Positions 2,969-64,000 of a stretch of DNA of 64,000 nt are shown one piece after another. The first letter of the stretch is position 1. Each line of letters opens with the position of its first letter. The notes beneath the pieces are model-generated. The model did not search any database and had not been told where the DNA came from. It saw nothing but the letters and a program-made list of their open reading frames with translations. The position numbers and the translations under genes were made by a program. This DNA comes from Mesaphorura yosii (lineage: Eukaryota > Arthropoda > Collembola > Poduromorpha > Tullbergiidae), in the NCBI GenBank assembly GCA_009869945.1, contig WIXG01000129.1, positions 124,001-188,000 of the forward strand. The letters run 5' to 3'.

Positions 2969-4675
2969 TCAAGAAAAGAACAATTTTTCGGTATTTTTGA
3001 TGACTGATTCCGCTAATTCTTCTTCTGGAATTTCCTTCAACGCTGCGACAACTTCCAAAATATTTCTGAAGAAAGAATTCATGCATTAGAGATGACACAA
3101 CGGGTTAAAACTTTTTGAGACTTACAGGATTGTTTGTGGCTCATTCCTCGCTTTAAACATAACCTTATCACTCCAGTCTTTCTTGGAAGTTTCAAATTTT
3201 GTCTTGCAGTATTTCGACGAGACATGAGATGGTCGTATTCCACACCAAGGTGCGTCCGTCTCTAATAGTAGGGAATCGGTCGGGATTTCTCGAACAACCT
3301 TGCAATTTTCGTCCGTCTTCAAAGAGCTGCATGTATAAATTGGGAGAATTGTGAAAATGATTTCGCGACACTGGTACAGACATTGGCATACCATCCATTT
3401 ATTCCAATATGCAATCCTAATTCTAAAAACCATTGTAATTCCTGCAAGGTCCCGTCAAACGAATGCACTACACCACCTTTCTGAAAACAGTCCTTATGAG
3501 CAGTCAATATTTCCACTAAGTCTTTCGAAGCAGCTCGATTGTGGAGAAACAATGGAAGAATTGTATACGGGCCCAATTCCGTTAGTTGCAGCTCGAAGAA
3601 TCTAATTTTGAAAGAACGAAAATAACGTAATACTTTTATGTTTAACCTACACTTGACTAGTTGTGTACCTTTATACCTTTTCTGAGTTTCGACGTCACAA
3701 AAATTTGTTCGCTCATAGTCCAGGCCAAATTCTCCCAACGCAATAATACTTTGCCTGTTCTCATCAAAAATCTTCTTGAGATCAGTAATGTAATTTGAAG
3801 GGTTGTCATTTGTTTTCGTAAGGAATTCGGAGCAGCGTGTTGGATGCACGCCGACCGTGCTGAATAGCCGCTTTTGATTCTCTGCGGACAATACATCCAA
3901 AGCAGTTAGCAAAGTATATAGGACGCCAGAGACATGAGTACGCTTACCTTGATTAAGTTCTCCGACCAATTTCGCTGCAGCACGCGACTCGTCTAGATTT
4001 CCGGCCGTCACAAATATTTTTTCCACGCCTGCGCTATTGGCCCGTTGCAAAACGTGCTCTAAATCAGGCTCGTGTTTCTTGGAGCCATTGTAAATTCCTT
4101 GATACATCTCATCCAATAAATTGGCACCTATATCTGGAAGGTTTTAATAGATGCGCATAAGTAACCTTGTTGTTGTTTACATTGCGAGTCTCATATTTCG
4201 TTGAACTCAGCTTTGTTGTGCACCAATACAAATAAATTAAAACTTTCCTACGGTGTTTGCTTCAAGTTCAACCAACTTATTTTCTGGGACCTCAGAAGTC
4301 TCAACTTGGAACTATAATTTGGTTTTTGTCACAATACAAATACAACGCAGTAATTTAATCCATCGATACCAAACATATTGATTTGCAAGCTTTGATAAAC
4401 TTCGGATAAGGATTGATCGGCGATGTGACTGATTGGCCTGCTGTAGGATACTGGTATTGCAGACTTCATACGATGGAGGCGCAAAGTGCACAACAGAAAT
4501 TAAACGCAATCTAGGAACCAACTCGAAGCCAATATTACTTTATGCAGGATGCGCCGGTCCGGACTCCATAAAATAAGTCTTCGGAACTATTTGCCCTACA
4601 TTTTAAGTATTTATTCCACTCAAATATTCAAAAATAAAGACATCTACCTATGAACCGGTACTTGTGCTTCGACAT
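2969..4675 (-). CDS. TATDN1: TatD-type deoxyribonuclease TATDN1 (6 exons, 308 aa)
   Basis: Exons 4675-4648, 4133-3948, 3881-3677, 3601-3392, 3326-3126 and 3065-2969 give one 927-nt frame. The start MSKHKYRFIDIGANL matches the TATDN1 N-terminus. TatD family metal-site motifs follow in order: VGVHPTRC, GEFGLDYER, LPLFLHNR, VVHSFDG and ETDAPWCGIR, then the conserved RNEP segment and a C-terminal helix ending in FFS. The family is a Mg2+-dependent DNase with a TIM-barrel metallohydrolase fold, reported to act in DNA fragmentation and chromosome segregation in animals. All listed motifs are present, so the enzyme is probably active. Exon 1 holds only 28 coding nt and is separated by a 514-bp intron. 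It was placed by matching phase and by completing the conserved IDIG motif across the junction. Confidence 0.93.
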
Positions 4676-17697: not shown

Positions 17698-18738
17698 CTA
17701 CACGAGATTATGATTTATAGGAGAAGAGATTTTCACTCCATTCGTTGTTGGCTGTGCTGTATTCGCATTGTCATCAAGTTCCAGTGCCTGCACTCTCACG
17801 TACAATGCAATCCTATTTACAGACAGTTCAAAACACATTTATGAGCCATTATCGTTATGCTAGAAGTTTTCGTAATTACTTACCAAGAGCGCCATTAGTC
17901 CGATGAAAACTGCCTTAACGAGTGGATTAAGTTGACTAGCAGTGTTTAGAGTGAGTTTGGTACCGGTTCTCAGAACCCGTCCCACTTCGCTTCCGTCAGA
18001 AGCAGCAATAATCTATACAAATACAGCACGAAAAACTGTAGATGCTATTTGTTGGGCCTGATTTCAAGTTTAGCTTACTGGGTACTCTGAGGCTTTGAAT
18101 ACTTTCTCTTGTGACTTGATTATAAAGTGCAAATTCCCACTTTCGTCGTATACTTCAAAATCAGTTCGGAAGAAATTGCTTTTAGTTTTGATTATCCCGA
18201 TGGGCCTTCCAGGAAGTACGTACACGGTCGCACGCTGAAAATAAGGGATAGAATAGTGATGATGGGAATACGAATATGGGACAGAATCATTCCACTGGGA
18301 GATTTATTACCTGGGGTGGAAGAAATTGGCGTAGGAATCCTTCTGAGTGAAATTCAATTCTGAGTACTTCATCGTCATCCAGCGAGTACATGGTGATAGG
18401 TTTTCGACAGTTCCAGCCGTTAAGTTGCGTTCCGGACAGGATCTCTTCATTCGTCTCACCATTCAAGATTTTAAAGTGAGATTTCTTGCCAAACAGCTCT
18501 TTAACTGTGGAAAAATAGCAACGTTAGCTGTAAATGGTGCAATATCAGGAGCATTGCATCTACTTCTGCCAAACTTACTTCCTGAAGGATGTTTTGACAC
18601 AATCATGGGCAGATTTTCCAGTATGTCCAGTTCCTGAGGATATGCGGCATCGCTCGACTCGTAGTTACAAACGCCAGGGTCAGTTCGGTCGTCCGAGTAC
18701 CTTCCCCACTGAACATGCGTGTAGTCGTTGAATTCCAT
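17698..18738 (-). CDS. divergent phospholipid-scramblase-like protein A (5 exons, 242 aa)
   Basis: Exons 18738-18579, 18504-18311, 18234-18079, 18012-17884 and 17787-17698 sum to 729 nt with matching phases. The order of segments follows the scramblase family: an N-terminal LDILENLPMIV helix, a KSHFKILNG strand, RKPITMYSLDDDEVL, then a 52-codon exon with VYVLPGRPIGII, then EVGRVLRTG and a final hydrophobic helix (VKAVFIGLMALL). The cysteine cluster (CCGPxRPF, CCCPCC) and the acidic DADNFGI motif of active scramblases are missing. The C-terminus is a short polar tail. Membrane attachment is likely; lipid scrambling and Ca2+ response are not supported. An in-frame ATG at 18768 would add ten residues. 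The gene is convergent with the ADAM-like locus. Confidence 0.78.
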
Positions 18739-18768
18739 CGATACACTGCTTTGATTTGATAGGAGCAT

Positions 18769-21325
18769 GGTTTCTCTTCGTTTGGTTGAAAGATTTCGTG
18801 GAGAGGAATAAGGCCAACGCTTAAGTAGTGGATTTGGATTGTGGTTTGGCAAATTAGTGTAGTGAAATGTGGCACAATAGTAGAACGACCGACATAACTG
18901 TACTTGTATTTGAGCAAAATCTCGTGTGTTAGACGTATGTCTTAAAAGCTAAGGAAGGATAGCACTACGACCAAGAATTGGATTGCATATTAAATGCATA
19001 GGAAAATTGATACAATTGAACGAAGATGAGATGAGTACGTCGAATTGCTAATCACGCGGCGCAGTCGTACTCGCACGGCCGTCAAATTGATACCACTGAC
19101 GAACTAAAACAGCACCAGTACTCGCTTTACATAACAATGGAACGCTGGCACTGACACAAAGACTGCTGCTTGGGCTTCTTTAAATGACAGATTTTGTATT
19201 CAAGGGCGAATCACAAATTGTTATCTCTCCTCCACACTCGATCCTCAATTGTGAGCTACGCGAGCACAGCAATGAGTCCTCATTATTGTCCTTTTCTCTT
19301 CTCTTCAGATTGTGTTTGTGTAATTTCGTGATTAACACTTCTCGAGAAGGTTCACTAAAGAAGCACCAGCGACAGCAGTAAAGCACTGTGGTTAAAAATT
19401 GAATGAGCTTCACCGCTGATATAATTATGACTGGTTTAGTAAACAATGCCTTCTCCGATGTCTTGCACTGCGCTCCGCTCACAGCGAGACGAGACTGCCA
19501 CAATAAATGCCAGCCAGTCAGTGAGATACTGCATACACAGCAAAATCTGCACGAGAGGAAGTGTCTGTCTGTTGCTGGGAAGTCTGGGTCCGTTCCGTTC
19601 CTGAATGCAGTAAAAGCAAACGTATAAGTATGAAGGAATCAATAAAAGCAGAACCTTTAACACGGCAGCGATTTGCCGTCAGCAGTCACCATACGTTTTA
19701 TACACTGCACTGCGTCTCATGTTACTCTCTCGTTTGCGAATATTCGCAAACGCAAACGAGAATTCTGAATCAATGAAACTCATGCTTGTTGGTTTGCTGG
19801 AACCTTTGGATATGAATGAAACCTTTTAACATGAACCACAGTCAAGCCATGCTTTTTCTACACTATCGAATCTGTTTATTTATATGTGTGTGGAACGTGG
19901 AAATATTGACTTGGAAGAATGAATGAAAAGACAGCCTTATCAAATGCGATGCTTCTGCTCTGCCCTCCTACACGGTGGTGCGAAAAGCAGGAATAGGTTG
20001 TAATCATTGATCGTGATCACGGTCTCAATCACTCAACAACTCAACAGACGTCAATCGCAATTCAATATGTGTACTCAGAGTCCTTTTTCCAATTACTGAA
20101 TCTAATTAGATTTGCAAATAGCAAACAGGGCCTTGAATCAAAACATCTGCGGGCCATTGCGTTGGCTGATCTGGGATCAAGCTTTCTCCATAACTTCATG
20201 ACAGGTGGAACCGTCGGAACCTTGGACTTATTTGCTCGCCTGAGATTTGCCATGGACGTAAATCATTTTAATGAAGCTCCACTCTATCTCTCAAAAGCAC
20301 AGCAGATTCCTGGACTTACCGTTTTGTCGCAAGCCAACAAAACGAACTTATGCTGGGCACTAATCACTTGTATATACGATTTACTGGTCTCTAAATTCGC
20401 AATTTTGATGGCTCCGAACCTGCAAAGTTGTAATCAGCCTTGGCGTGAAACTATGAGCACGTTACAAGTGGTGTTATTGACTTCTCAAGAGCTTCTTCTC
20501 AACTGCGTCTCCTGCAGTGATTTTTTCTATTCTGAGCCTCTGTCTCGATTCATGCATGTATAAAAAGCAGATTTTGTTTACACTCGTCATATGCTTTCAA
20601 TTCGCCCGTGGTAAAATCCTGCAAGCAGAGCAAAGACAGAATCGCAAGTAAATGCGTGTGATTCGCGAGATTTGTGTGAGCAAGTGCAAAAGCGGAGGAA
20701 GCACAACGTGTAATGTTGATTTTGAACTGCGACCAGAAACAGAAAATTTTGCGTATTTTAGTTCCTGTAAAACGGTGTTGTGCTGTGGTCAATAGAGTCT
20801 TTGTATTTCAGGTTGTGATTATTTCTGCTTTGTGGCATTTGTAATTGACGGTTTCCACAAATAATTAGAAGCTGTGTCCTAATCATTTCTCAGCATTGAC
20901 GCACAAAGGGTTGCGTTGTTCCGGAGCAGAGTTCTAATTATTCCTTTTCATGAATCGAACGTAAAAAAGGACGCGGGGCTAGTATTATTAGTACTGTGTG
21001 TTGTTTTGGTTTAGCGTTTCGCATTTAAGTTATTTCGCTTAGCAAATGGAGCTGAAATCAATGCTGAAATTAATTGCCCACTCAAACACATTGAAATGTC
21101 AGGAAGCGGGATTTTGTAGCCAAAGTCAAGGATTCTAATATACTACGAACCCACAATTTATTCCAACTGAACACCTGAATTATGTATTATTTCATTCCAA
21201 ATAACAGTTTCCGAACGTTAATTAAATTGATCTGTACTGACTGTGACCATGTGGGCTCAATGATAATACATCAAGCCACACACAAAATAGCACAGGTATC
21301 GGTTGATGCAGCCGGAAGCTTTGAG
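18769..21325. other. intergenic, no supported gene
   Basis: A 164-codon open frame at 20069-20563 (+) begins with GTG, has no splice signals and matches nothing recognised, so it is not called. A perfect 22-bp palindrome lies at 19731-19752. Confidence 0.5.
19731..19752. repeat. perfect 22-bp palindrome
   Basis: Each half is cgtttgcgaat, meeting its reverse complement with no spacer. The downstream base run (caaacgag) repeats part of the arm. It lies in the scramblase A upstream region, about 1 kb from the start codon. Confidence 0.9.
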
Positions 21326-22765
21326 TTACGGTTTCATGCAAGCGTTGCTGAGCCGTAAGTTTCCACGCACGTTCTGAAATAAGAATGAGAAATATAAGTT
21401 TGCTTTACACCTCCAATGATCGGATGTGCAGGAAAGTGAAGTGGCAATTACCAAAAACAGGCAAAACGCTATTATCAGAGCTTTAACGCTTGGCGAGATT
21501 CCAGAATTGGCAAATCTTGTCATGAACTGTTGCCCCTTTCGGTAGATGAGCGCCGTTGTCTGGTTGTCCTTTTCTTTAATCTACACACAATATGTTAAGG
21601 GGGCAATTACTATTTCGTGGATGAGATGGTGATGTCAAGAATGCTGCATTGTACTTACAACAAATTCCGGTCCTTCACAACAGAAATTGAATTTTGAATT
21701 GACTGCATAAGTAATCTTCATCGCGTAGTCTTTAATGATGAAGTCGTTTCTGCTGCAGACCGACGAATCTTCTTGAACATGACCCAACGTAGTTCCAAAT
21801 GTGTCGACTACATGTACACCCTGTTTTCGGCAGAAATTAAATAACTGATAACGTCGACACAGATGTGGGCACTTCAATAGTTTTGTAATTTCCTTCCATC
21901 TTCGATTCGACTGAATAGAAGAATGCTTCTGCGAAACAAATTCCTCTTTCCTGGGGCAATTCACTGGGAACTTTCCTGAAACACTGTCTCTAGTCTCCAG
22001 GAACAATTATTGAGGAATGCATCAAGAATCTTCAAGAATTTTTGACATCGACATTCAAACTACTATGGCATCAGATGAATAGAAATCTAGAAAGCGTTTT
22101 CCCGTGTTTAGTTCTGCCTGGACCTAGAACAGATTGGATGTGGCACACAAAATAGACTGGCCACAAGAAGCCTGGGATCAACTCATGTATTGTGGGATGA
22201 CATTCACAAATCATAATGTCTGCCTTCCTACGGAGAAAATTCTAACTCGCTTTTTCAGGGACTTCGCGACTTGCCATCTTACTCGCAACACTGGAAAGCA
22301 GGTACTTGCTCCAGTCAGGAAATGAATTTGGAAGACCATCGCTCCAGTCTCGTCGTACATGTCGATGTTGCAGGGGCGCACGCCAAGAAACGAAAGCGTC
22401 TGCTTTCCTCGCAGAACGATCTTTGACGTTGGCGGATCCTGTAAGTCCCTCAGACCAAGATCTACCACACGATATTTTGTGCCAAGGTTCAAGATACTCC
22501 AAAAATTGTTTTTTATCAGGAGTGTTGTGTAGTGCTCCAGAGGAGGAAACACTACTCTCTCAGAATCTGTAATAGGCAATGTTAGAACGTAGAAATCTGT
22601 GTGATACAAAGGACAAAAGACGCGATGTTTACCGTCAGGATAGTCAGGAACCTGCAAACCCGAAGAAACTCCAGAAAACATTACAATTAGGTGTACTCTT
22701 GCCAAAATTGCCAATATAGTGCTGTAAAGTGAAAGCCTGGGCCTGAACTGACGCTGATTAGACAT
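21326..22765 (-). CDS. divergent phospholipid-scramblase-like protein B (about 251 aa)
   Basis: Exons 22765-22633 (least sure), 22566-22283, 21820-21659, 21580-21452 and 21373-21326 keep one frame (756 nt). The scramblase order is visible: PPLEHYTTLL, GTKYRVVDLG, VRPCNIDMYDETGAMVF, then a 54-codon exon (VHVVDTFGTTLGHVQ, FIIKDYAMK), then KDNQTTALIYRKGQQF and a terminal helix (SVKALIIAFCLFL). The exon with the terminal helix is exactly 43 codons, as in gene A. The multi-Cys and DADNFGI motifs are absent. The tail is short and basic. The N-terminus is open upstream, so the start could differ. Function unknown; probably a single-pass membrane protein. Confidence 0.7.
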
Positions 22766-24529
22766 GAACATAGCTGCTTCATCTTTTCTTAGATGTGGGT
22801 CTGAAGGTGAATCGATTATTTGCACATCTGCCTTTATTTGTTTCCAACTGTCGCACAAATCAGCTGTCCAGTCAATCCAACTCAAACTGATCTTAACAAG
22901 AACTTAACATTGTCCTCATATGATAGGACAACGGAATTTCTATCCCCAGCAGTACTTGATTGTCAAGTCCAATGTCACCTGTCAATATTCATGCCACCGA
23001 CTTAGCCATATGCTTCCTGAAGTCGGGTCTGTCTAGCCAATACATACCTCCGCAACTCCGCCGAATTAATAATTAATAATATCCTTGCTCCGCTTTCCAT
23101 TCCAATATTTATTGTGTCATTCAATACTCGGACATGTTTCCTATCGGAGTTTTTTGTACACGTGCGTGAATAATTCATGAACGATAATTGGATGACCTAC
23201 ATTATTATGAATCCACAATCAAGTAAACAGGTACAACGATACGATAAGGACACTTGTGGCTCCGTAGAAAGTCCGCTCCTATCGAGACAGGACTGCATCT
23301 TTTGCTTGTTTGTTTTCTTTTCATGTATCACGACCATGACTCGTACGCGTCTGCTTTACGTCCTTTTCCATTTCTTCAATTTTCTAAAATTACGTAACTG
23401 TAACATTAATTATGTAACTCAATGGTTTCTGTATTGGTCTTTATTTACTTTCTGGCTGCTGGAATCTCAATCCCGGTTGGTTTTGGCAAATGATTTGGAC
23501 AAACAATCAATTTGGATTTTGCACTCGCATTTCCTAGTTATCAGTGCTGGAACGGCCGTAAGGGCTTGACCTCGGTGGTCACGAGAGTGCTACCAAAGGA
23601 CAGAATTCGCTGTCGTAGGTCGGCCACCTCATATCTGAAATATCATTGCATTAATATTCTCGCCGCCTAGCTAGCTGGGTCTAACCACTATCGCTGCCTG
23701 GTTAACAGTTGCCACCACCTGACGCCCGTCCAGGATAGCCACAGCTCCAGGGAGTCGACGTGCCCAGAAAACACAGAAAGGGTGCCCAGCAAAATAAAGC
23801 CTATTCGCGCTCTCCCATGGTAGAATCACCGGCTTCAGACTTCCTCTCCTTTTGCTGCGGTCACAAGAAAGTGTGGAATTTATTGCAATTATTCTTTCAA
23901 TTATTTAGGAAAGAGCTGTTTTCACTCAATTCCATGAGCGATGAGTGGGCATAGCAAAGAATTACTGTTAAATATGAACGAGTGGCACTAAAAGTATCTT
24001 ATCAACTTGATATGATGTATTAATAATTATTCCATTTGTGTTTGTGTTCAATGCAATTTTTTAAAGATTCAATTCACAGTTTTGAAGGTACGGTCATCGG
24101 CAAATTGAGAATTCGAAATTAAAAGAGCTAAACACGGTAATTTAAAGGACCTTCAATTGAGTCCGGCAAGAGCCCAAAGAAAAAATTGTACTTGGTTCAG
24201 TAAAATACAAAAATGTCCTTGTCACAGCCAATTAATTTACAAAATAGCTGATACGGTCTGTACAGAAATTAAGGCGCTCATACAAGTCCCAGGGTGCAGC
24301 TTCAAGGGAGTCCAATAATTGTATCTTCTAACATTATTTACTTAATCATAATGAACTGCATGTCCAAAACCAATAAATTACTTGGAACAATTTTCCGCAA
24401 ATAATTTCTTCCTTTCCTAACTTCCTTTACTATAATTTAGACGTCAACAGGAATTGCAGGATTGAATAATAATACCCACGACCATGATAATAAGTGTTGT
24501 CAGCTGTGACTCCGTTGAGTAAACAGTGT
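22766..24529. other. intergenic, nothing recognised
   Basis: A slightly GC-richer stretch at about 23550-23830 stands out but has no coding support and no recognisable tRNA or transposon ends. Confidence 0.45.
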
Positions 24530-25787
24530 TTAGTTGTTATTGTTCTTTTCGAAGTACATGAAATCCTACAACGACAATAAATAGTATCAATAATTGACCG
24601 ATAAATTTACAATAAGCACTTACGATTAGAAAACACGCTCCAATTAAGATAGCCTTAACTTGGACGTGCAAGTCAACGGGGAAAGTGATACCAAAGTTGT
24701 CGGCATCCGTAAAAGCTTCTTTAATAAAGCCGCTCCATTTTTTACAGATTTTGCCAACCTCTGTGCCGCCATCGGCGGACATGACCTGCACAATGTGACA
24801 TACATGTATGATTGAAATTTTTCCATGTTCGGCACCGAATTGACGATGTTCGTAATCTAACGCTAGATTAGATACCGTACTTTAAATTCAACATCGTTAC
24901 ACATGCAAGAGCAAGTACAAAGAGGGCCATCAATTTTGAAGATCAGTCCTCCAGATGCATCCTTGACCTCAAATTTGGGGAAAAGACTCCACTTTTGTTC
25001 AATTTTTCCGATCAGTACTCCTGGAGGGGAATATACTTCCATAGCCTACGAAATGCCAAGAAAAAATTTTTCGAGTCTTTCATTCACTGTATGCTTGCTG
25101 TCATTGCTGTTTCATTTGTCGACTCCATACCTGCAAGCAACATGGACAGCAGCACGAATCACAGTTGAGTGGTCTGTTCAAGTGAATCACAGTTCGATCC
25201 TGATGATCCTTGATGTACAGATCAAAAGGACGAATCGGTCCACAGCATTGACGTGTGCAAAAGTCATTCTCTTCCTTCGCCTTGAACATAATCTCATTTC
25301 GTGCAGTTTTAATAATGTAGCGATTTTTTGTCTCACATCCAAACAGGACTGTAAATAAACGAAACCAGTTATGAAGCATGAGATCACGCTGCCGTTGAGT
25401 CTAGTAACTCAATTCGGTTATTTATTAAATTACTTTCGACCAGCTCCAGGTCTTGCTTCACAAACACAGAGTCCAGCATTGTGAGATACTCCAATCCTGG
25501 TGGAACATCATTCGTGAGTGGAATCACACTCAAAGGAATTTCCACTCCGAGTCCTCCTCCTGTGCTAACTATACAGTCAAGCAATCAAAATGCATGATAT
25601 GAATGTTCATCAATATTATTAAGCTTTATCGTAGCTCAATATTATCGTAGAGCTTTAAACATTTTAAACGTATTTTGTGGGTTAATTATGTAATCAAGCG
25701 AGTAATAAAAAATAGTTTCTTGTCCTTACTGAAGGAAACAGGTTGATTCAGCACTGGAATCTCTGAGTTGGGTCTTGACTTTTCCAT
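24530..25787 (-). CDS. PLSCR: canonical phospholipid scramblase C (6 exons, 257 aa)
   Basis: Exons 25787-25730, 25568-25434, 25348-25131, 25045-24881, 24785-24624 and 24565-24530 give 774 nt in frame. All family hallmarks are present: [20 protein letters not shown], the Cys block [14 protein letters not shown] and [47 protein letters not shown] and the C-terminal helix [13 protein letters not shown]. In mammals such proteins are palmitoylated on the Cys cluster, carry a Ca2+-binding acidic segment and move phospholipids between plasma-membrane leaflets or act as lipid-linked signalling proteins. The N-terminus is short: the proline-rich region of typical members is reduced to about 45 residues. 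It sits between divergent paralogues and gives the reference for their exon phases. Confidence 0.95.
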
Positions 25788-27641
25788 TGCAGCTGCAACC
25801 GTGCTGTAGTTGATACTAATTGTTTTGTTACAGACGAAGACGGTGTCACGCTCCAAAGCTAAACGTCTCGTATTGGTCCTGGAGCTGGAGTTTGAAGATG
25901 AAGATAGCCTCTGCACTCGCACTTTGTGACTTTAGCAGCTTGACTGACTCTCCAACAACTTAATTATAAGCGAGTGATTGAACTATGCATAGATTGAGGC
26001 TGGGTTTAGAAGGGCGCATGGGCGGCTAAAATAATACGACAAGCAGTCAAGCTCTCTTATCTACGAATTATGAAAACCCTACTTGACAAAGCTTTTGTAT
26101 TAGAACATCGATTTGATGCCGAACCGAACTCATTTGAGGTAGCAGCTTTTATCATGGGACATTATCGATATTATGGTAATTTTACATTGACATACATCGT
26201 CATCATTATATATCCCAAATGTGAAATGTGATTATGATATCTACGGCATATTAGCATCCAGCACCAATACGTCAAATGCGGCTGTAGAATTAAATTGATT
26301 CATAAAAGCAAAGCGAAACGCAACACACCACTAAATATGAAACGAACAGCAGCAGCAAAGCACTTCAGACCAGCGTTAAAGACGGATCAATAGAACACAA
26401 GCGGATTGAGTCATCCTTTAAAACCCAGAGCCAAGCTTAATCTCAAAGAAACTGTGTTGGGCTATTTGGGTATCAACAAATTGCTCTTTGTGTTTTTATT
26501 AAGAGACTTAAGAGAGGCCAATGAAACACGGAACGGATTGGAATTGCAATTCTGTAATATTCTAATGCATCATGCACCGGTTCCACTTGTATCGTGCCAA
26601 TGACTGCATTGACGGTTTGAACCATGCTGGGCATTTACGGCATTTCATGACGCGAATTAATTGCGCTGCGAGATGATTGATGCAGAAGGAATTGAGACTT
26701 TGCAGTCAATGCAAAGTCTATCTTTGCAGAGATTAGCAGTCAATGCTAATTGCAAATAAGAGCACAATACGCGAGTGAATCATAGGAAAACACAAATTTT
26801 CCTTAAATTCTCATCTGACCCGTGAAGCTCATCTCCATGTCCATGATGTCCAAGATATTTACCTGGCTTTATGATTATTAGCATAATAAAGTGTTACTGT
26901 AATCACATTATGCTAAAAATTAAGCATAATGTTCAAGGTCTCCCGTCAGTCGACAATGCAAGGCGCGACACAAAGAGAAAAAAGAGAACAGGTTTGCCTA
27001 TATTTTATTATGCGTCTTCCTGCAAAACATTCCTTCATTTCGCTATTTCGCACGGCACGACCGAAGTGAAGGCTGCGTAGCGTACTCCGTACGACAAATG
27101 ACTTGCCAAGGCTGGCCAAGCGGTGAGCTGCTGGAGAGCTGTAAAGCACGACAAAAAACTCGCTCAGTTACATTGATACACACAGGACCAGTGAACATAA
27201 AATTCAATGTCTCACAACTCTCAGGAATAACCTCGAAGGATTTATTTCACGACCTTACATGACGCTACATGGTAGCAAATTTTATAAAAGCTAATAAAAT
27301 CTAATTTTGATTGTCAAATCGCATTTAATAATTGATTTCGAATTTTGTAAAACTTATCTGATTGTAATGAATTCACTTATTGACATAATCATCTTAGAAT
27401 TGATTGCACAGGAATTGATAAAGGCAGGATTGGCGTGGCTGCATCTTTTACGTCGTTGCATTTTGCGAAGGTGTGATTGACTTATGTGGTGTGAGTCTCT
27501 CGTTAAAAAGGCACAATATTGCTGCTGATAAGAGTTGAAATATCTGCACAAGCAATTGGAAAATAAAAATACAATTGTAAATATTTTCCAGGTGCGTAAT
27601 TTAATTCCTTCGCGGTAGGTGATTGCTTACCAAATCCGGCC
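25788..27641. other. intergenic, nothing coding recognised
   Basis: AT-rich DNA upstream of scramblase C and downstream of PMP3. It holds short direct and inverted repeats around 26690-26760 and a clean inverted repeat at 26905-26932. Confidence 0.5.
26905..26932. repeat. 10-bp perfect inverted repeat with 8-nt loop
   Basis: Arms acattatgct and agcataatgt flank an AT-only loop. A partial third copy (agcataat) lies just upstream at about 26879. No gene model overlaps it. Confidence 0.85.
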
Positions 27642-27910
27642 TTAATATTTGAGAATGATGTAGCAGGCGTGTATGATTCCAGGAATGAACCCGAGGAGAG
27701 TCAATCCGATGTTGATGAGCAGATCCACTCCGCAGCCCTTCTCGGCTAGAACACCAAGTGGTGGGAAAATGACCGCCAGGATAAACTTGCAGATATCTGG
27801 AAGAATCAAAGAGAGCGGATGTTAGATTAATTAAAACCAGCAGGATGCAATTCGTTCTTAGCACAGGTCGTTAGTTTGTTCTTGACGTAACCTGTGCACG
27901 TTAATGCCAT
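27642..27910 (-). CDS. PMP3: PMP3/UPF0057 membrane proteolipid (2 exons, 57 aa)
   Basis: Exon 27910-27892 (MALTCT plus one base) joins 27796-27642 across a 95-bp intron. The product follows the PMP3 family from end to end: DICKFILAVIFPPLGVLAE, KGCGVDLLINIGLTLLGFIP, GIIHACYIILKY. Two transmembrane helices are separated by the charged AEKGCG loop, and the length equals the family norm. These proteolipids sit in the plasma membrane and affect membrane potential and salt tolerance in fungi and plants; their role in animals is poorly known. The donor is GTTACG, weaker than others here, but it completes the conserved Asp codon exactly. Confidence 0.92.
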
Positions 27911-29800
27911 TTTGCTGCAGGACCGTGAATTTTCGTGTCACAACTGGCAATTCACAAAATGCGAATGCTGTTGGAGATTTGCGTTGTCGATATAAACAGC
28001 CACTCCTTGAGTCTCGCTTGCTTGGCGTCGCGTTCGCGTGTGAGCTGTTACTGAGTCTTTATATTTAAACTCTGAATAGATTTAACACAGTCTCGCTTGC
28101 GATGTATTCGAGAAGAACAGAATACCCACGTGAGCATGCGATTTCAATAAGATTCATTTGAATATGGTACTGCGAATGATAAACAGTTGCCTGGGTACAT
28201 ATCGAGTACGGGGAACCTCGAACCTGAGGCTATCCGGACTCGTTGATTAAATAACGTGGTAATCTGCTTAGTTGGGCCGTACTTTACATAGAGTACACAC
28301 AAAGCTCGACTGTAGCTGGAAAAATCATAAAAAGTGAGTCAAGTATTTAATGTATGGCCACATGGGTTGGGAGGAGAAAAATGTGCCAGTGCAGTGCCAA
28401 GCACTGAGTCATTCTTGTTACATCAACAGGACGAGCTCCAATGTACTATTCGCGTTGATGATACCATCTCATTGCCTTGCTTTATTTGATTTTACCCTTT
28501 GCTTGGTATTATTGCATCGGTAAAGTTGATGCAGTTGGTACTGGTACTAGTTTACTTACTCATCAAAAGTACTAAGCATACTTGTATGCCTAATGCAAGC
28601 AGAAGTCTTCGTCATCAACACGCGTTTCTTCTTTTCTTCTTGCGACGACGTAACACGTAATAGGTGACTCAATGATTGTGATGATGCACCCAGCAAGGCT
28701 GAATAATGACGGCATGGAATGATTCAGAATCACGAAGGACTCCATCCCATCCTGAAGTCCTTGTCAAGCCATGGTTGAATTCCTGCCGTCATACTTAACT
28801 GTAAGATGTAAATATAGCCCCTTGATTAAATTCAATTTTTCATGGCAGGCAGCATAAAGGCGAATGTTCGATTCGGAACATACGTAACGATGGTAAGACC
28901 TACGTATCTGCTGATGAGAGTTGAGCACATATTTTATAGTCGTAATTGTAAATCATTATAATCATCATAGCAGTTTAACTGTTGACTCTGTGCACACAGA
29001 ATGGTTTATGATGACGCTAGAATATTCGTCACCAATAACCAGTATGTGAATATTAATCACATTTTAGCATTTCTGTCATGTTCGCTTCTGCGAAAACTCT
29101 GCCGGCTTTGCGGCAGGAAATGTGTTTCCTGAAGCAAACTCGGCCACATATGGACGAGGATACGGCCACGAAGGTCTGGGTGAGTCTAGTTTTGTTCCAC
29201 ACGTAACCTCAACCTCATCTGATATCAGATTGTGTATGACAACGTGCGAATTGAAATTGAAATTAAATTTTCTTGCGCGAGTCACAGAGGAGGAGACTTT
29301 GAGAGATCATCGGGACGCAGTATTTCCAATTTCCGTCATCTGAGTTATCACTTGAGTTTCTTCATTATTCCGTTGTCGAGCATAAATGGTTTTTACAATG
29401 TAAATTCGAACAATTTAAAGAGACCTGGAATAAGTACGCATTGATCGCGGCGTAGAAGGTTTTGGAGGTTCTTATCGTATTTTGTGGATTATGGTTAGTT
29501 ATCACAATACACTTGAAATGACGATGACACAATTTGCAACACATTTATGCATAAAGGCATGAGCGACATACGAGATGTCCTGTACGTCGTCTGTTGGAAT
29601 GGAACTCATTTGGTCAGTCATTAGTCATGCGGTAGGGATTTTAAGAGCCGGCTTGAGTGTTTTTAAGGAATCACGGAAATGTGCTTATTAAAGCATAAAC
29701 ATATACATAAAACGACATACTCACATCATTTAATTGCCAGCATTTAATTTAATTATTCATTAATTTGCTAATATTAGGATAGGAATTGCGAAGTATTAAA
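27911..29800. promoter_or_regulatory. divergent region between PMP3 and Kir channel
   Basis: The start codons of PMP3 (-) and the Kir gene (+) face apart across 1.9 kb. Promoters and any 5'UTR exons of both genes should lie here. No coding exon or specific element is recognised. Confidence 0.4.
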
Positions 29801-31332
29801 ATGAACATACCAGACGTAAACAAGTTTGATGTACCTGAAAGAGAAGAATGCGAGGCACTCACTAATAACTCAGCAAATCCTCACAGAAGGCTATCGTCGC
29901 CGTTCTCAAAAATGAAGTCCAACATCCCAAATCGAATTGGAAAAGAAATTGAAGTGAGCACGGAAGACGCGGACTCGAAATCATTCGCAGACGTGCAAAT
30001 CAGGTGCGAAAAGTTTCTACAAAGTCAAGAGTCTCGTTCGTTTGAACTTGCATGTAATTTAATCTTCTCAGGCTGAAAAACTCCGACAAACGAATTATGA
30101 GTAAAAATGGACACATTAATTACGCCAGGGAAGGCATAGACAGAAAACAGTGGAATTATTTCATCGATATCTTCACGACTTTACTCGAGGCGAACTTGGG
30201 CTGGACGTTGTTCGCTTTCATTGTCACATATTTTGGAAGTTGGCTGCGTGAGTTGACTTCAACATTAATCGCGTTGGAGCAAACCGTGCCATTGTCTTCT
30301 TCAGTCTCAGCTTTTGTGTTTCTTGCTTACAGTGTTCGCTGCTGGTTGGTACTTAATTCAATTTCTGCATCATGATCTGGACCCAGTGAACGTCGTAAAT
30401 GCCAACAATGGAACGTGGAAAGCTTGTGTGATAGGAATTGACAGCTTCACAAAAGCATTTTTGTTTAGCGTAGAAACTCAGCACACAACGGGTAACGAGT
30501 TGGCATTTGCATGGTGCAACTTAGCAGGTGTTTGGTTGCGTGCAAGCCAATAATTCAAGAAATTATGCCCTAGTACAGGTTATGGGTTTCACGAGTTAAC
30601 TGATGAGTGTCCTCAAGCCATACTCTTGTTCTGCATCCAGTCGATTGCTGGCATCATCTTGGAAGGCATCATGGTTGGTCTCATCTTTGTAAAAGTGTCC
30701 AGGGCCAAGAGACGACGTGCAACGCTGATGTTTAGCAGACATGCGGTAATCTCAGAATGTGATAATGGAAAACTATGTTTTATGTTTCGCGTGGCGGACA
30801 TGCGAAAGAACCCGCTGATCGAGCCAAGAATCCGTGCCCAATTCATCCAGAAGCGATTAACGGCTGAAGGAGACCTTCTGCGAACCAGTCAGACGGAGTT
30901 CCCAGTGAGTAAACAACATTAATTCAGCATTATTACTGTCTTTCCTGGAATCCTTCCAAAATACATTTTGCTTTCCAAACGCTCCAGGTTCACGGTGAAG
31001 GTGAATGTTCAAATCGATTGTTCCTACTGTGGCCAGCTACGGTCATCCATGAAATCAATCCTTCGTCGCCGTTTTATCCAATGGTTATGGAAGAGTTCAG
31101 TGGCGAAACTTCAAAGTTTGAGGTTGTGATCATTCTCGAGGGTACATTGGAGTCTACAGGCCAGCCGACGCAGGCTAGGACTTCGTATTTGCCAAATGAA
31201 ATCCTTCGGGGACACTACTTTCAACAATTGTCAGAATTCTCTACAAAGTCGCCCGAATCCGGGGAACGCGTCATCGACTACTCAATGTTTCACAAAACAT
31301 TTTGTCCGAGTGAACACGTTGCCAAATTCTAG
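29801..31332 (+). CDS. inward-rectifier potassium channel, Kir family (5 exons, 402 aa)
   Basis: Exons 29801-30003, 30072-30247, 30333-30491, 30579-30904 and 30988-31332 total 1209 nt in frame. The Kir layout is complete: a cytosolic N-terminus ending YFIDIFTTLLEANLGWTL, first helix, pore helix SFTKAFLFSVETQ, selectivity filter TGYGF at residues 179-183 (split by intron 3), second helix with Glu208 at the rectification site (Asp172 in Kir2.1), then the basic SRAKRRRATLMFS lipid-binding linker and the cytoplasmic beta domain (RFHKT-like DYSMFHKTF). The channel should pass K+ inward and set resting potential in plasma membranes. The filter entry reads ETQHTTGYGF where I recall TQTTIGYGF, a His and a Thr substitution. 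Confidence 0.94.
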
Positions 31333-31696
31333 TCCCAAGACGCGGCACGATGCTGAGCCGTTGAGTTGAGGCATTAAGAAGTTGTTTATCACTGACGATT
31401 ACTGATGTCTGCGCATTTATTCTAATCTTCCATTAACAATATAACTTCCTGTTAATCCTGTCATTTAAGTTGTCTACTTACACGATACAGTAAAGTAGTA
31501 TTGAGTTACAAAGGTCACCAAATGTTGCCTTCGTTGGAGTATTCAAGTCTCGCAATCTTTTCATACTCCAGCTATCAGCCAATGGCCAGTATTCCAAGCA
31601 AAGGACCAAAAGTACAAATTCGATTACTTCTAAAGATATCTCATGTCTGAGTATTCTGAGCTTATAAAAGTAATTGACTAGAATTAGAATTAAGCG
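31333..31696. other. short convergent intergenic spacer
   Basis: Spacer of 364 bp between the stop codons of the Kir gene (+) and scramblase-like D (-). Nothing else is seen. Confidence 0.5.
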
Positions 31697-32642
31697 CTAC
31701 GGTTTCGGGTTCGGTTTATTGCTCGGACCCCAATAAGAGCTTAAGGTTAAACCAAATATTGTGAAACAGCCGACTAGAAACGGAGCAAGGCAGATGCATC
31801 TGGAGCAACTCGCTTCACAGTGGACTAATCCCTGAAATCCAAAATAGTCACCATTAGCCTTAATGTTTATCGGTATTTGCACGAGAATCCAGTTCACGAC
31901 GTGTTGAGTCACTTACCAGAGTAATAATTAATGAAATAAACAGTGCTTTGTTGGCGGAGCTAATCTCTTCAGTAAACGTCAGCGTATACTTTTGTGATTC
32001 GCCAGGATGTCTCTTTTGAACATTGACTATTGCCACAATTGTACCGTCCGCACCTTTAATCTGTAAACATGTCACACAAAGTAGTCAGTCTCAATGAATA
32101 ATAAAGGTAGACAGATGAACTTACTGATATATCAGACTGTGACATGAACTGGACTGCGTACGTCTCTCCTTCCAGCGCGTTCAAGACTTTTAATGAATGC
32201 TTTAATTGGCCAGCCTCAAACATGATAGCACCAAACGGATTCTCGTACACGGGAGAAAATACAGCAAAGCAGCGTTTTTCCTACGATATAACCAGAAAAC
32301 TCCGTGTCACATTTGCAATCCGTTGAAAAAATCATAAACTTGATTCGAAACAAGTAGTGCTCACAAGTTCATTTTCTGGTTAAAAATTACTCAACAGTAA
32401 GATACTAAATCTAGACCATCTCATTTAAGGTGACTGACTCACCTCAGAGTCGCATTCACAGATTGATGGCGTGAATTTGACTTGAAACAGACAATCATCA
32501 TTCAAGTCTTTGACTTGAACCATTTTCATCTTCGAATCGAATGGACAGAATAGTTTGGTCGTATTTGCTTTGAGAAAGAGGTCTCCCTGTAGGTTGAAAA
32601 CGCGGAATCCTGGGGAGCAGGTGTAACTTCCAGACAACAAAC
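31697..32642 (-). CDS. divergent phospholipid-scramblase-like protein D (5' exon not found)
   Basis: Exons 32642-32443, 32280-32125, 32060-31917 and 31831-31697 read through in one frame to the stop; the first begins in phase 1, so at least one upstream coding exon is missing. Segments follow the scramblase order: GSYTCSPGFRVFNLQGD, VQVKDLNDDCLFQVKF, a 52-codon exon (FAVFSPVYENPFGAIMF), GADGTIVAIVNVQ and the helix ANKALFISLIITL. The Cys cluster and DADNFGI motif are gone. The last exon adds a Cys-rich stretch (CEASCSRCICLAP) and a second helix (FLVGCFTIFGLTL) before a polar tail, unlike classical scramblases with one terminal helix. Membrane location likely; activity unknown. Candidate 5' coding sequence near 32750-32830 could not be joined with confidence. 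Confidence 0.72.
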
Positions 32643-35090
32643 CTGTGGGAAAAAGGACACACGTGTCAGTGCTTCGCATTTACAGTTGATTGGTCCAAGT
32701 TTTATAATAGTTTTAGTTGTAGAATCTTCTCGTTGTCTATCTGCACATCGCCAATATTTTGTCAATACGTGACCCGTTGTTATTGACGAAATCCTCTTCC
32801 CTGGCTTTGCAGGCAAGTTCGAAAAGCGTTTTCTTATGTATTAAAGCCTGGTACTGCCAGTACACGAGCCGAAGTGTTGAGAAAAGTTTTATCATTTTCA
32901 ATGGATAATTTAATTCGTTTTTGTGCTAGAGCCATAAATTCTGATGGGATAAATTGCACGATCTCAATTTCAGCTTCTGATAAACAATCAAAATGCGGAT
33001 GACAGCAAATATTTATTCCTCACGAGCACGATAAAAGTTGTTAGCAAAGTGAAAGCATGGCGGGCACGATGGCCGTGAAGGATAAACAGGAAGACAATGC
33101 GCAGGTTGACGTGAGATTTAATATTTGGCTGCCGTCATGCATTGTCGTGCATCTTGACACCGTTCACCAGCACCAGCACATTCGACAGACAGAGCCAAGC
33201 GTGGAAAGGGAAAGCTTTCCCACGTGCCACGTCTCTTTTTGTGCTGCTGAACTGACGAACTCCGTCCAACTTTACAAAAGTTTCAGGGCTTCCACGCACA
33301 ATGGCAATCAAGCTCATGTGACAAAGTTTAGGCTCCAACTGGTTACATCTTCATTTGCGGAGGCCGTAACAAATCTCATGCATTATTCATTCACGCTTAC
33401 TGTGCAAGCGTTGCATGTGACACATTTGTCAAAAAAAACAGAACGGTACGGATGACTCCGTCATGCTTAAGGTCAGGCAGACTTCAAAGGAAAAGAATTC
33501 GTGTTTTGTACTTCATTGACAGCGACAATGGAAACCGTACATTTTGAATTTTTCCTCCCATTCATAATTAATTTCAAACAAATTACAAACCCGAAGCGAA
33601 AAAAAAGTACCTTAACGGTCACCCCGACTTTCCAGGAATTTAAAAAGATCGAGCCGAAGTCAAATTCAAAATAATTAAATTATGCATTGCGTACGACGCA
33701 GGTCACATCACTAGACAGCATCGGCTAGGCTCCGGCTCGGATTTTATATTCCGTCCTTGTACCGATATTTCAAGTGCGCTGAAGTGTCTCGAGTAAACAT
33801 CCAGCATTCCAGCCAAGTTTAAGTTTGTGTTTCTTTCAGTCTGATGCCTTCAGGCTAGAGATTCGATTACATTCTCTCTTTGCGTTCTATTTGCGCCAAA
33901 CATTCCAGTAAACTGGAAACTTTCCGTCTCGTCAAATTGAATAATCTATGCAAGAAGCAAGATATTCCGACTTCATTCAGCGTGGTGTCACTTCAAGTCG
34001 TGTCACAGGCTAAAAGTATTCTTGGTACCGAAAACCTTCAACTGCCTTCACGCAATTCAATGGAAAGAGACAGAATGCAGAATGGAATATTGATCGACTT
34101 TTACGTATCTGTGGGTATTTGGTGACAAATCTTTTTTTCCTACTCCTGTCTTTCACGTTAACATGAGCACTTCTTCTCTTCTCAGTGACAGCATTCTCGG
34201 AAATGGAAATCTGAATACATTTGTGGGCACGAGAATGAGTCGGAATTGGGCGTGGTTTTGATTACTTTGACTTCAATTTATTCAAAGTCATATGAAAAAA
34301 GTTTAATAAAGTTATGCCATTCATGTGTACACACATTTCATTGGCAAATGCATAGCTTCAGGCACTCCGGAATGCTGCAATCCTGCTCCCGTAACTTTCT
34401 GTAGATGATGATGATTATGGCCACGGGAAAAGTAAAAAAGATAAAGGTACACACTTCCAAGGACAACATCAACAAATGAAGTGTCTTGCTTTCAGTTGTA
34501 TGACTTTTTAAATTAAATTTCTTTCGGGAAGTCAATTAATGAAAATGCTTTCATGGTTATTATTGATACCAGAGCCGAGAGCCGAGCGGGTGCATGCGGC
34601 ATTTGCATGCGCCATCCTACCTGCCCCTGGAGACGGGCGGACGGCTCAATTTACTGGATGAAATTTGGCGTATGGGCCGCCTACTGTGACACTGTCGCCG
34701 TCCTTTCTGACATTGCAACAAAACTTGCAAAAACAAGCGCCATCACTATCTATCCTCTTTATCCCCGAATTGTAACAATATTAAATAACGAGCACCCAAG
34801 CTTCTGTCAAGGCCAAATGCGGCAAATGGCAAGTAAAACGCAAGAAATGACTCATTCCAAAAAAGTACAGAAATAGTCCGGCAATACAGTTGACTGCACG
34901 CTCTGAATAGGTGTGTGTCCACTTCATTGACTTTATGCCCACCATAAATTCTAGGTGGACAGCACATTAAATTGCAAATTGTCAACAAGTCGTTGTAGAT
35001 TTATGAGCTGACCCACTAAGGATGATCTAAAATGTGGTCGGTAACGATTTACTGGGACTAATGTACTGTGTCAAATTAAATGGGCCTTAC
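32643..35090. other. gene-poor region; unplaced 5' exon of D expected here
   Basis: The missing first exon(s) of scramblase-like D should lie just above 32643. A minus-strand open frame at 34338-34535 encodes a strongly hydrophobic stretch (FIFFTFPVAIIIIIYRKL), but no splice partner was found. Confidence 0.4.
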
Positions 35091-45889: not shown

Positions 45890-48661
45890 TCAAGTGAATT
45901 GAATAATAAAGAAAATGATAAATGTTACGAGAATTGCTGACACTGCGAAGAATACGGGGAATATTTCCGACTCGAGCCGTGCTGAAGCCTGCAAAGAACA
46001 CAAGAGAAGGAGTTACAATAAAATTCGAACTTTACGAAAACCAAAGTGAAAGTAAAGTTTTCGCGAAATGCGCACGGCAAGACACACACGCGAAGGAGAC
46101 TGGAAGTATAAATTATCATTATTGCGCCAGCCCTCGCTCTCTGCTCCTGTCAACTCTAATTTACGGTTTCTTAACATGCAAATGATCGTGCAGGATTACT
46201 GGTACTTTATCGCTCACCGTGTCAGAAAATTCTTTGATTCTAATTAATCTCATAATTCATTTTCAATTAGACTCCTTTGGGATACCGAAATATAGTACAA
46301 GCAGCAAAACAGCCGTAGCATTGCGCTATACGTTGTACGAGGAGTCGAAACCTACTTCCAATTATGAATGCATGTTAAACGATAAAAGGCAACTAGCTTC
46401 GGTACTTGTGCTCCGTCAATATTTACAGTGACTTACCAGTGCCAGAAGGAACCCAAGCAGCAGAATTTGATTTGAAATTGAAATTTCTTGAAGAAACGTT
46501 AATCGGTAAACACTCTTCCACCGATGGCCAATATGCACTTTCACATCAGCAATAGGCGGAGTAGTGATCTCGTCTCCATTCTCGGAACCACCACCAGAAG
46601 CTGCGGTTGTTTTCGGAACAAAAGTAATTTTCCAAAACTGAAAGAAGTATACATTTTTCTTGCAACAAATTTTCGATTAACGTCAAACTCGGGTCGTCTA
46701 GCTTCAGTACACTCTGCCGTAGAGACATTGCCTTGCTACACAACGGACAAGTTACAAGATGGAAGTTCGCAGAAATAAAATCTGCTCTATTTTGTCTTTA
46801 GATTGAGTTTCTCTATTAAAAATTGGGACTGAACGGGGACAGAGGTCATGGCCGTACTCAGAGGCTCCTGAAATAGCCAGGAAAGCAAAGTAAGTCTTTA
46901 TTGGCTACGACTGTTATGGCCAATAAAACTTTCATACATCCAATGAAAAGATTCTAGATTCCAGCGTGCGCTCAGAATAACAATAAATTGTAATGCAATA
47001 TCAACATAAGAAAATTGTTGATATGAGAAGATAGCACACTGTCACTTGAATCTCAATCAGGGCTCAAACTAAAACATATCATCATCATTCTCCATTCTCC
47101 AAAGCTAGACTTGGCAATAATCTTCTTTGTAATAGTGAGACAAAAATGTTTATTTCTGGAAGAATTTTGAGCTCCAACGACATGTTCTTAAGCTGTACCC
47201 AAGTATACGCTAAAATTACTTGAATAATGACACACCAGACTACATATTAGGATTTATGCTCAGTGTGTGGCGTGGGTTCGTTTCTTTCCTACGTCTGTCT
47301 GGTTCATTTTACGCTTCATTACTTATAAATGCTGGCGAAATGCTTCGACTCTGGTCCATGAAATCCATGAAATATTTGGAAGATTTCACAGTCCAGAACG
47401 TTAATATTCCACGCTCTGTTTCTTTTCCTTACCTTGACATCACCTTCTCGCTCCACAGTCACGGAGTAGATTTCCCCAGTTAATTTATTTTCTATTCGGG
47501 CAGGTAATTTGAATGTTTGACGCGCGTCACATTTAAGGCTCCCAATGTAATGTTCGCAGTTTGTATAAAAGTCGAAATTCCTCACGTCCTGGAAGGAGCA
47601 AAGCGGAGACACGAAAAAGGCGAATATTAGCTAGAGAAACCGCAGGATCAAAAGCGCTTCATTTGCATATATCTGTGGCGTAATTCGTATTGCGTTTTCT
47701 TATTCCTCAAGACTGCACTTAAGTGTCGCAGTTTTAATTTTCTTACCTCGACTATGCTGGAATGAATCCGTAAGATATTCTCCGCATTCAGTTTGCGTAT
47801 GAATATTTCATTCGCATTGGTCACGCTCAACGAGCAGTACTTGCTTTGAACTGCCTGAAACAACTCCGTCCTCTCATCTTCCCCGTTGCATATTTTAAAA
47901 TGAATCCAATCTGCAAAATTGTAGAATCAAATTGAGTCAGCATTCCATCCGCCTTGAATTAGCTAAACTGGCCATTGGGATTAACCTACCTAAACACATC
48001 GAAATAGATTTGAGCTGTCGAAATATTTCAAATGGTTTGAAATTAATAAGCTGAAGCTGGCTTAGACGATTAGCCGACGACTTTCTAGAAGATTTCCTTC
48101 TTTGACTATGCTTGCGTATTTTCACACTCCGCGTGTTTGAGTTTGAGTCGGTGGTGGCAACGCCACCATTGGCCCTCAACGACGGCCTTTTTTCGGCGTG
48201 ACCTTGTTTTAATGTCTTTATGATTGGATTCGGGCTTAAATGGCTTTTGCCTTGAGTGTCGGATTTCATTTTCATCTGCTCTGTTTCTCTGGATGAGTTG
48301 TGGTTGTTATTCAACTGATCTCTTTGATCTTCTTTCACGCGAGCGTCTCTTGCGTAGCTGACATCATTAGCGAATTTCATAGCTGCCTGCACACTTTGAT
48401 CACTGTTGCAGCACGGATCAATCGCGTTAGGAACAGATATGCTAACGGAAGTTGACGGAAGAGCTGCTGGAGTTTTGCGGTTCTCTTCTGCAGCATCGTT
48501 GCTCTCGACACTCTGCTGCTTTCTTCTCTTTGTCCCTATTCAATAAAATATTCATCGCAGATTAGAAAACGCTCCAACCAGCTCAAAGCTGTGATTTAAT
48601 TGAAACCATGCGGTTCAGTTTATAACGTACTTTGCGGGACTTCCGGGCCAGCATCGTCCAT
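45890..48661 (-). CDS. divergent scramblase-like protein E with long basic N-terminus (6 exons, 398 aa)
   Basis: Exons 48661-48631, 48535-47990, 47910-47747, 47588-47433, 46637-46437 and 45988-45890 total 1197 nt with every phase agreeing. Residues 1-175 are polar and low complexity, ending in a Lys/Arg/Ser patch (KIRKHSQRRKSSRKSSANR) that resembles a nuclear-localisation or membrane-binding patch. The scramblase pattern follows: LINFKPFEIFRQLKS, DWIHFKICNGED, KYCSLSVTNANEIFI, a 52-codon exon (CEHYIGSLKC), HRWKSVYRLTFLQEI and a helix ILLLGFLLAL. The last exon adds a second helix (IFPVFFAVSAILVTFIIFF) and then stops. Cys cluster and DADNFGI are absent. An insert rich in Gly/Ser/Thr precedes the helix exon. 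Function unknown. Confidence 0.8.
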
Positions 48662-62040: not shown

Positions 62041-64000
62041 TCAAAGCATTCCGATTGTATCCCCTTCTTGATTTCCAGATTTTTCAAAAAACATGAAGTC
62101 CTGCAACGCAATGCAATTTCTCCGATAGATACAATCTTCTAGGTTGGAGTTTGAGGTTAGGAATCAGAATAACTTACAATTAGAAAACAAGCACCCAGCA
62201 TAACAGCTTTCATCTTGACGTCCAAATCCATTGGAAATTGAATTCCAAAGTTGTCAGCATCCGTGAAGGCTTCTCGAAGCAGACCACTCTGACAAGCAAA
62301 GCAGAAATTAGACAACCTCGGTGTTAATTGTAGCTCTATTAGTTAACTTACCCATTTCTTGGAAATTTTTCCAACCTTTGCAGAACCATCTTTTGATAAA
62401 ATCTGGAATATGAAAGATGTGAATTCAATTTCAACCTCATCTGATTAATTCCAAGGATGTAACCTGAAATTCCACATCTCCGCAAATTGAGTATGTACAG
62501 AAAGGCCCTACGATCCGAAGGACGACTTCGCCAATAGAATTCTTCACGACGAATTTTGGTTCGCATATGCTCCATTCTTGTTCTACAGTTCCAGCAAGTG
62601 AACCCGGTGGTGAAAATACTTCGAGCGACTAAGAACCATAAGGAGTTTTGTTACAAATACAGATTACAATTCAAGTATTAAGAACGTACTTGCAACCAGC
62701 AAGGACAAAAGCATGAAGTGCAAGCAAGAGGTCTTGTCAAATGAATGACTTCGCGATCACTGCCATCCTTAATGCTAATGTTGAAGGGTCTCAAAGGGCC
62801 GCAGCAATTTCTTGTACAACAATCTGCAATATACACGAACATTGAATTAAGTTTCTATAAAGATTTGCGCATTTAAAATGGAGAAGTCCAAGGGTAAACG
62901 ACTGACCTGTATCTTCTTTTGCGATAAAGAGGTCCAGTCCCGCAGAATTTTTAATTTTGTATTTGTTGTTTGTCTCACACCCAAGAAAGGCTGTAAAAAT
63001 ATGGTCTGTGAAAAATACAAGATGCTAGGGGTTGCATCGAAGTTAGTAATTGCTTGCCTTCGAGTAGCTCCACTTTTTGTTTTACGTACAGCGTATCAAC
63101 CTGAGTTAAGTATTCTAGACCAGGTGGCACATTCAAGGGCACTCCAGGACCTCCGATGTAGCCTGCGATATTTAAGAAGTTGTTTTAAAACACATGCCAC
63201 ATACTAAAGTCGGTGGTGAAAGTCATGCAAGCATCATCAGTATTGACATTTTCTACTGTGCTAAAGAAGTGTGAATAACCTCTGAAGAACTGAAACTAGA
63301 TTAAAACTTCTACATCTATTCTATACCAGAAGTCATGCATCTTCGGTAGATAAATCGCATATTGTATTCATGCAGTAAAGCGAATAAAGTGTGCAATATG
63401 CATGCTAATAAAGTCGTCAGCACAAACCTCTTTGTATATCGTAGAACGCTGTTTCCAGTAATATTGTGTAATGTAGGATTAGGGTTCAGACAAAAACGAT
63501 AGACAGAAATATTGACAAGTTAGTATTAGTTGTGAATCAATAAGGAGTTCGAACGTCCGGTCTCCAAAGAATTCACACCAGTAAAACAGGATGTACGTAT
63601 GATAATGAAAGGTTTTAATGCACGGTCGTACGCTCCTTTAAAAAATTGTAAATTACTTGATCAGATGAACATAACTTACCAACATCACCACCAGCCCCCA
63701 TTGGCTGATTTGTTACCGGTATAGTTCGAGGATCCACTGGCACAGGCAAGGGTGGGTACCTGCAAGGGCGACGTCAAACAAATAAGTCTGATGAGCGCAT
63801 CTTTTAATTCAAATTATATTGCGGTAGCCACTCACGAGTAGCCTGGTGGTGGCCCGCTGCTGTACATGTTGTCCATGTATGGCCCACTTCCTGATCAAGT
63901 AAATTTCCAATTAGCAAATTGTGCGAACAATGTCTCCTTGATTAAGAATGCTTGGATTTGCATCAGACATTAAATTACCTGGAGGTGGTGCCGGTGGGTA
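62041..64000 (-). CDS. PLSCR: canonical phospholipid scramblase F (5' end outside window)
   Basis: Ten exons are inside: 64000-63979 (cut), 63890-63836, 63759-63680, 63162-63058, 62990-62907, 62823-62690, 62628-62464, 62402-62352, 62288-62178, 62100-62041; 867 nt, 288 residues, all phases agree. The proline-rich N-terminus ([25 protein letters not shown]) is typical of scramblases and binds SH3/WW partners in known members. Then come [42 protein letters not shown], the Cys cluster [65 protein letters not shown] and [15 protein letters not shown]. All parts needed for a classical Ca2+-responsive scramblase are present. The intron after 63058 begins GC, not GT. More introns than in paralogue C. 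Confidence 0.96.

Follow-up and report, generated by a model that had tools for sequence, protein, structure and literature searches.

What happens to the copies of a phospholipid scramblase gene once they have parted with the motifs by which the family is usually recognised is the question raised by a cluster of six genes, here termed A to F, in the collembolan Mesaphorura yosii. The window, which is the whole stretch of 64,000 nucleotides that was analysed (positions 124,001 to 188,000 of contig WIXG01000129.1, GenBank assembly GCA_009869945.1), is part of a 191-kb contig, in a genome of 93 Mb in 1127 contigs. Searches for the nematode spliced leader, for COX1 and for two telomere repeats gave no match, and neither did one for the TTR-52 family, in which the controls were silent as well. 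Gene models were obtained by reading the minus-strand stretches frame by frame, and all six scramblase-type genes lie on the minus strand inside 45 kb, with A to D spanning positions 17,698 to about 32,950 and with E and F further along, which confirms the layout given in a preliminary description made from the letters alone. Genes C and F are canonical scramblases and A, B, D and E are not. We consider it somewhat more probable than the reverse (a probability of about 0.55) that the latter four are retained tandem paralogues of a C/F-type gene that serve as barrel modules rather than as scramblases. Judged from sequence comparison, the cluster as a whole is a set of divergent tandem paralogues of a known family, a variation that is real but moderate.

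Membership of the family can be placed on a firm footing for A and B. Against the Pfam Scramblase family (PF03803, gathering score 25.4 bits) genes C and F score 240.8 bits (E-value 1.4e-71) and 234.7 bits (E-value 1e-69), and the same family is the top Pfam match of gene A, with 18.8 bits (19.7 for the domain alone, E-value 0.0011), and of gene B, with 21.6 bits (E-value 1.5e-4), both under the gathering score. Genes D and E have no PF03803 match when compared with Pfam. When aligned by hhalign with a profile built from 13 members of the family in the same genome both A (97.7%, E-value 1.5e-12) and B (96.0%, E-value 3.9e-9) match along nearly the whole domain, and these comparisons make A and B firm members as scramblase homologues. 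Neither gene has a match in NCBIfam, a prokaryote library, and sequence searches of solved structures with the 13-member profile and with gene C found no scramblase. With A and B under the gathering score and no PF03803 match at all for D and E, standard searches miss these genes, much as the preliminary description had expected of searches for the Cys motif, and annotation at the level of Pfam undercounts the scramblase family in this genome.

The relationship was also followed with a purpose-written spliced profile aligner. With a profile that contained none of A, B and D, the places that ranked next after C and F were gene B with 46.7, gene A with 38.2 and gene D with 28.0, where the aligned paths of the latter two include some 5' exons that differ from the final models. 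The maximum was 23.8 in 52 reversed stretches and 23.0 in 100 stretches taken elsewhere in the contig, and the claim that A, B and D are related above chance is therefore upheld. When D alone was left out of the profile it scored 29.7, with the two controls peaking at 23.2 and 25.6. Gene E scored 20.0 and 21.8 in these scans, which is within the noise, and it resembles D in a direct pairwise comparison (z about 10, none of 200 shuffles as high), for which the last exon of E had been located with a profile that contains D. Searches taken to an E-value of 10 showed no closely similar copy of any of these four genes (A, B, D, E) elsewhere in the genome; the best matches elsewhere were of gene A to locus C540 (E-value 0.38) and of gene E to locus C211 (E-value 0.48), with none for B and D. 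The remainder of the contig (1-124000 and 188001-191135) yielded no further cluster member that could be accepted, the best scores of 25.0 and 23.1 with two profiles being at about the level of the controls.

Exon architecture provides a second line of evidence. The internal exon is 52 codons long in genes A, D and E; that of B has 54 codons and those of C and F have 55. Its two flanking introns are of phase 0 in each of the six genes, so that what had been stated of its length and phase in A, B and D is correct. Once introns were placed on an alignment that had been built blind to them, the intron on the 3' side of this exon fell in phase 0 at alignment column 220 in genes A, B, C, D and F. 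It occurs in none of the 13 other scramblase loci of the genome, two of which have imperfect models (C219 is apparently mis-spliced, and C705 has a doubtful 36-base intron, put by the aligner inside an open frame at column 227 in phase 1). As this intron is confined to genes of the cluster it can be regarded as a mark of the cluster, and it speaks for tandem duplication on the spot. The remaining introns have a wider distribution, with a phase-1 intron after the N-terminal helix that recurs at or near one place in five cluster genes (A, C, D, E and F) as well as in eight other loci, and an intron at the 5' end of the internal exon at or near one place in several loci. In gene F the N-terminal phase-1 intron (63058 to 62990) apparently has a GC donor (GCAAGC) and not GT. 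A probable extra 5' exon of gene D, with the weak donor GTGTAC, lies beyond the right-hand end of the region that was first described.

The tree of the family agrees weakly with tandem duplication. The label of belonging to the cluster needs two changes on it, compared with a mean of 5.3 when labels are shuffled, and none of 500 shuffles was as low; together with the intron in cluster genes only, this is evidence favouring the origin by local tandem duplication that had been suggested at the outset. D and E form a pair (88/88), A and B have no demonstrable link to that pair, and the tree program flagged A and B for long branches that meet. From its exon architecture above all, gene D is probably a scramblase family member and gene E is possibly one, both joining the family on weaker grounds than A and B, which are exon architecture, their mutual pairing and marginal profile scores.

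When compared with known phospholipid scramblases (PF03803, with human PLSCR1 as an example), the domain of A and B is homologous along nearly its whole length and the order of N-terminal helix and hydrophobic C-terminal helix is matched. Unlike those proteins, A, B, D and E have neither the cysteine (Cys) cluster nor DADNFG, both of which are kept in C and F. Among A to D only C retains the Cys cluster and DADNFGI, as had been reported, and since gene F is canonical the motif-less genes are four of the six over the whole cluster. The aligned segment of the Cys cluster contains no cysteine in A and E, one in B and three in D, compared with six in C and four in F. If the cluster is counted as kept at four or more cysteines, a threshold of our own, it is kept in 3 of the 19 members compared (C, F and locus C651; these 19 are the 20 candidates with C1032 left out), and DAD is present in five (C, F, C651, C705 and C540). 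With fewer than four cysteines in 16 of 19 members, loss of the Cys cluster is common in this genome and not peculiar to A, B, D and E.

Genes A, B and D have a more specific feature in the shortening of the calcium-loop segment, which runs between the last hairpin and the helix. It has 29 residues in A, 29 in B and 34 in D, compared with 40 in each of the two canonical genes and with 36 to 46 in 12 other loci, the exceptions being C219 (22, mis-spliced) and gene E (43, owing to an insertion). It is this shortening and not the loss of cysteines that sets A, B and D apart; motif loss as a distinctive feature had been overstated for the cysteines. The hydrophobic helix that follows the last strand is kept, with a mean hydropathy of 1.72 to 2.70 among the four motif-less genes, of 2.49 in C and of 2.06 in F.

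The genome contains at least 20 candidate scramblase loci including A, B, D and E, with PF03803 over its cut-off in 16; the genome search gave 23 matches, counted as 14 loci outside the contig plus C and F, and these counts are lower bounds. The 14 dispersed loci show a graded loss of the classical motifs. Five of them (C946, C109, C182, C242 and C392) have a degraded Cys cluster and calcium motif, like A, B, D and E, yet all five match PF03803 over the cut-off, have loop segments of 36 to 46 residues and do not carry the cluster intron.

It can be proposed from these features that a phospholipid scramblase gene of the C/F type was duplicated in tandem to give A, B, D and E, and that the copies were retained. 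Their products would still form a tubby-like barrel that encloses the C-terminal helix. Lacking the cysteines, they would be unpalmitoylated and stay in the cytosol or nucleus, and without the calcium loop they would neither bind Ca2+ nor scramble lipids. Most likely they would act as binding or regulatory barrel modules, for example as partners or competitors of C and F. A weak second Pfam match of gene A, to the LURP-one-related family (LOR, PF04525), has an E-value of 0.01 and is not significant. LOR proteins and Tubby C-terminal-like proteins have a related tubby-like fold, and a fold common to scramblases and these two groups is said to have been described by Bateman in 2009.

Human PLSCR1 offers an analogy. 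According to one study (PMC10371867), one of its functions requires the barrel and not lipid scrambling, its C-terminal helix is predicted to be buried in the barrel and its scrambling activity is weak; according to a review (PMC12003403) a Cys mutant of the protein relocates to the cytosol and nucleus. By this analogy the products of A, B, D and E should be barrels that are soluble and independent of Ca2+. A more detailed version, that they are lineage-specific tandem pseudo-scramblases in which the loop was cut back and the lipid anchor lost whilst the barrel and its buried helix were kept, and that they act as soluble, Ca2+-independent regulators of C and F, is put forward tentatively, as the odds are against it in this full form. 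The chief role of PLSCR-type proteins is unsettled, given that in the human protein scrambling is reported to be weak and separable from another function of the barrel (PMC10371867). Natural paralogues that have neither calcium loop nor cysteines and are nevertheless open would allow a direct test of the role of the barrel itself, and if the proposal is true they represent a natural separation of the function of the scramblase-family barrel from lipid scrambling. In a literature search that had most subscription journals outside its scope, no description of a motif-less scramblase cluster was found.

A number of results weigh against the retained-paralogue reading, and they bear in part on the alternatives to it. 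The cluster is monophyletic in 30% of 200 bootstrap trees, and one of 17 inner branches of the tree is well supported; with A and B not demonstrably joined to the D and E pair, the idea that the motif-less genes form one subfamily is conjectural, as is that of selection on their fold. In gene E the equivalent of the column-220 intron is ten columns off, in a gappy part of the alignment. Compared singly with seven family members D and E have non-significant E-values of 0.15 and 0.55, and jointly, compared with 13 members, 0.074. In human PLSCR1 the F281A and 5-Cys mutants, which do not rescue scrambling, also lose the anti-fusion function, according to PMC10371867, and the review describes the C-terminal helix as a membrane anchor (PMC12003403), in which case loss of the cysteines need not release the protein from membranes. 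By log-likelihood of codon usage the true frame comes out ahead of all five alternatives in A, B and D, and only barely in E; a score that uses synonymous codons only does not favour it in any of the four, nor in C and F. One could read these results to mean that A and B are true scramblase paralogues and that D and E, as a pair without kinship to them, lie inside the cluster by chance, since D and E resemble each other, singly have no significant match to the family and are without a PF03803 match, and since D stays just under its control (24.7 and 24.9) when the profile is built from A, B, C and F only. However, the intron of D coincides in column and phase with that of A, B, C and F; D also has a phase-0 exon of 52 codons as A does, and tops the controls with the two other profiles, and D and E together, when compared with 17 other members, score 22.6 (E-value 0.011), which none of 100 column shuffles reached (best 19.7). 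Chance neighbours therefore seem an unlikely explanation of D and E.

The same codon scores could be taken as a sign that A, B, D and E are pseudogenes decaying after tandem duplication of C or F, as divergence is strong, the codon-usage signal is weak (weakest in E) and absent from the synonymous-only score, and D and E are not recognised by PF03803. Decay is difficult to reconcile with four multi-exon models that are free of stops over 751 codons (A 181, B 189, D 184, E 197), with splice sites that are mostly consensus-like, despite end branches of 1.2 to 2.5 changes per column in the tree. By our own arithmetic the chance of finding no stop at saturation is about 1e-20, a figure that is biased, like the count of stops itself, because openness guided the building of the models. 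C and F moreover do no better than the other four by the synonymous-only score, and on balance decay is decidedly improbable. That A, B, D and E are working scramblases which need none of the classical motifs would fit the fact that most family members in this genome have lost the Cys cluster and that the hydrophobic helix is retained, but in A, B and D the calcium-loop segment is itself partly gone, and the failure of the two human PLSCR1 mutants to rescue scrambling speaks against it as well, which leaves this the hardest of the readings to credit. Retained paralogues with a barrel role thus remain the reading that we prefer.

Table 1. Scramblase-type genes of the cluster, with positions in the window, and dispersed loci of the same family in the genome.
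Feature	Position	Strand	Evidence or remark
Gene A, motif-less, scramblase-like	17698..18768	-	Pfam, hhalign, exon structure
Gene A exons	18768-18579, 18504-18311, 18234-18079 (52 codons), 18012-17884, 17751-17698	-	last exon and start codon tentative
Gene B, motif-less, scramblase-like	21452..22651	-	Pfam, hhalign, exon structure
Gene B exons	first ends 22283 (5' end unsure), 21820-21659 (54 codons), 21580-21452	-	no last exon found beyond 21580-21452 in the gene model
Gene C, canonical scramblase, Cys-rich segments and DADNFGI	24530..25787	-	PF03803; first exon tentative
Gene D, probable motif-less, scramblase-like	31917..32950	-	spliced profile scores, intron column
Gene D exons	32950-32866 (weak), 32609-32443, 32280-32125 (52 codons), 32060-31917	-	
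Gene E, possible motif-less member, relative of D	46437..48059	-	pairwise match to D, exon phases
Gene E exons	48059-47990, 47910-47747, 47588-47433 (52 codons), 46637-46437	-	
Gene F, canonical scramblase, Cys-rich segments and TDADNFG	62041..63162	-	PF03803; 5' end unsure
Dispersed scramblase loci	C109, C134, C182, C219, C242, C392, C450, C537, C540, C651, C705, C808, C946, C1032		PF03803

Upstream of the domain of gene E is an open frame (48533-47990, minus strand) rich in serine, lysine and arginine, which by eye has a stretch like a nuclear signal and the codon usage of which looks non-coding.

The window also carries genes of other families. Between C and D, on the opposite strand, is an inward-rectifier potassium channel gene (30058-31329, plus strand; PF01007 and PF17655), and at about 27640-27800 on the minus strand there is a small Pmp3 (UPF0057) membrane protein (PF01679, E-value 5.1e-23). 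A plus-strand match to a disintegrin at 17136-17492 is weak (E-value 0.0053, under the cut-off) and is possibly the end of an ADAM-type gene. At 11562-13514 on the plus strand a weak filamin repeat (24.0 bits, cut-off 26.9) is followed by the start of a HECT domain, an arrangement that resembles the AREL1-type ubiquitin ligases. A TatD-type nuclease is encoded at 3322-4143 on the minus strand (PF01026, E-value 5.8e-25).

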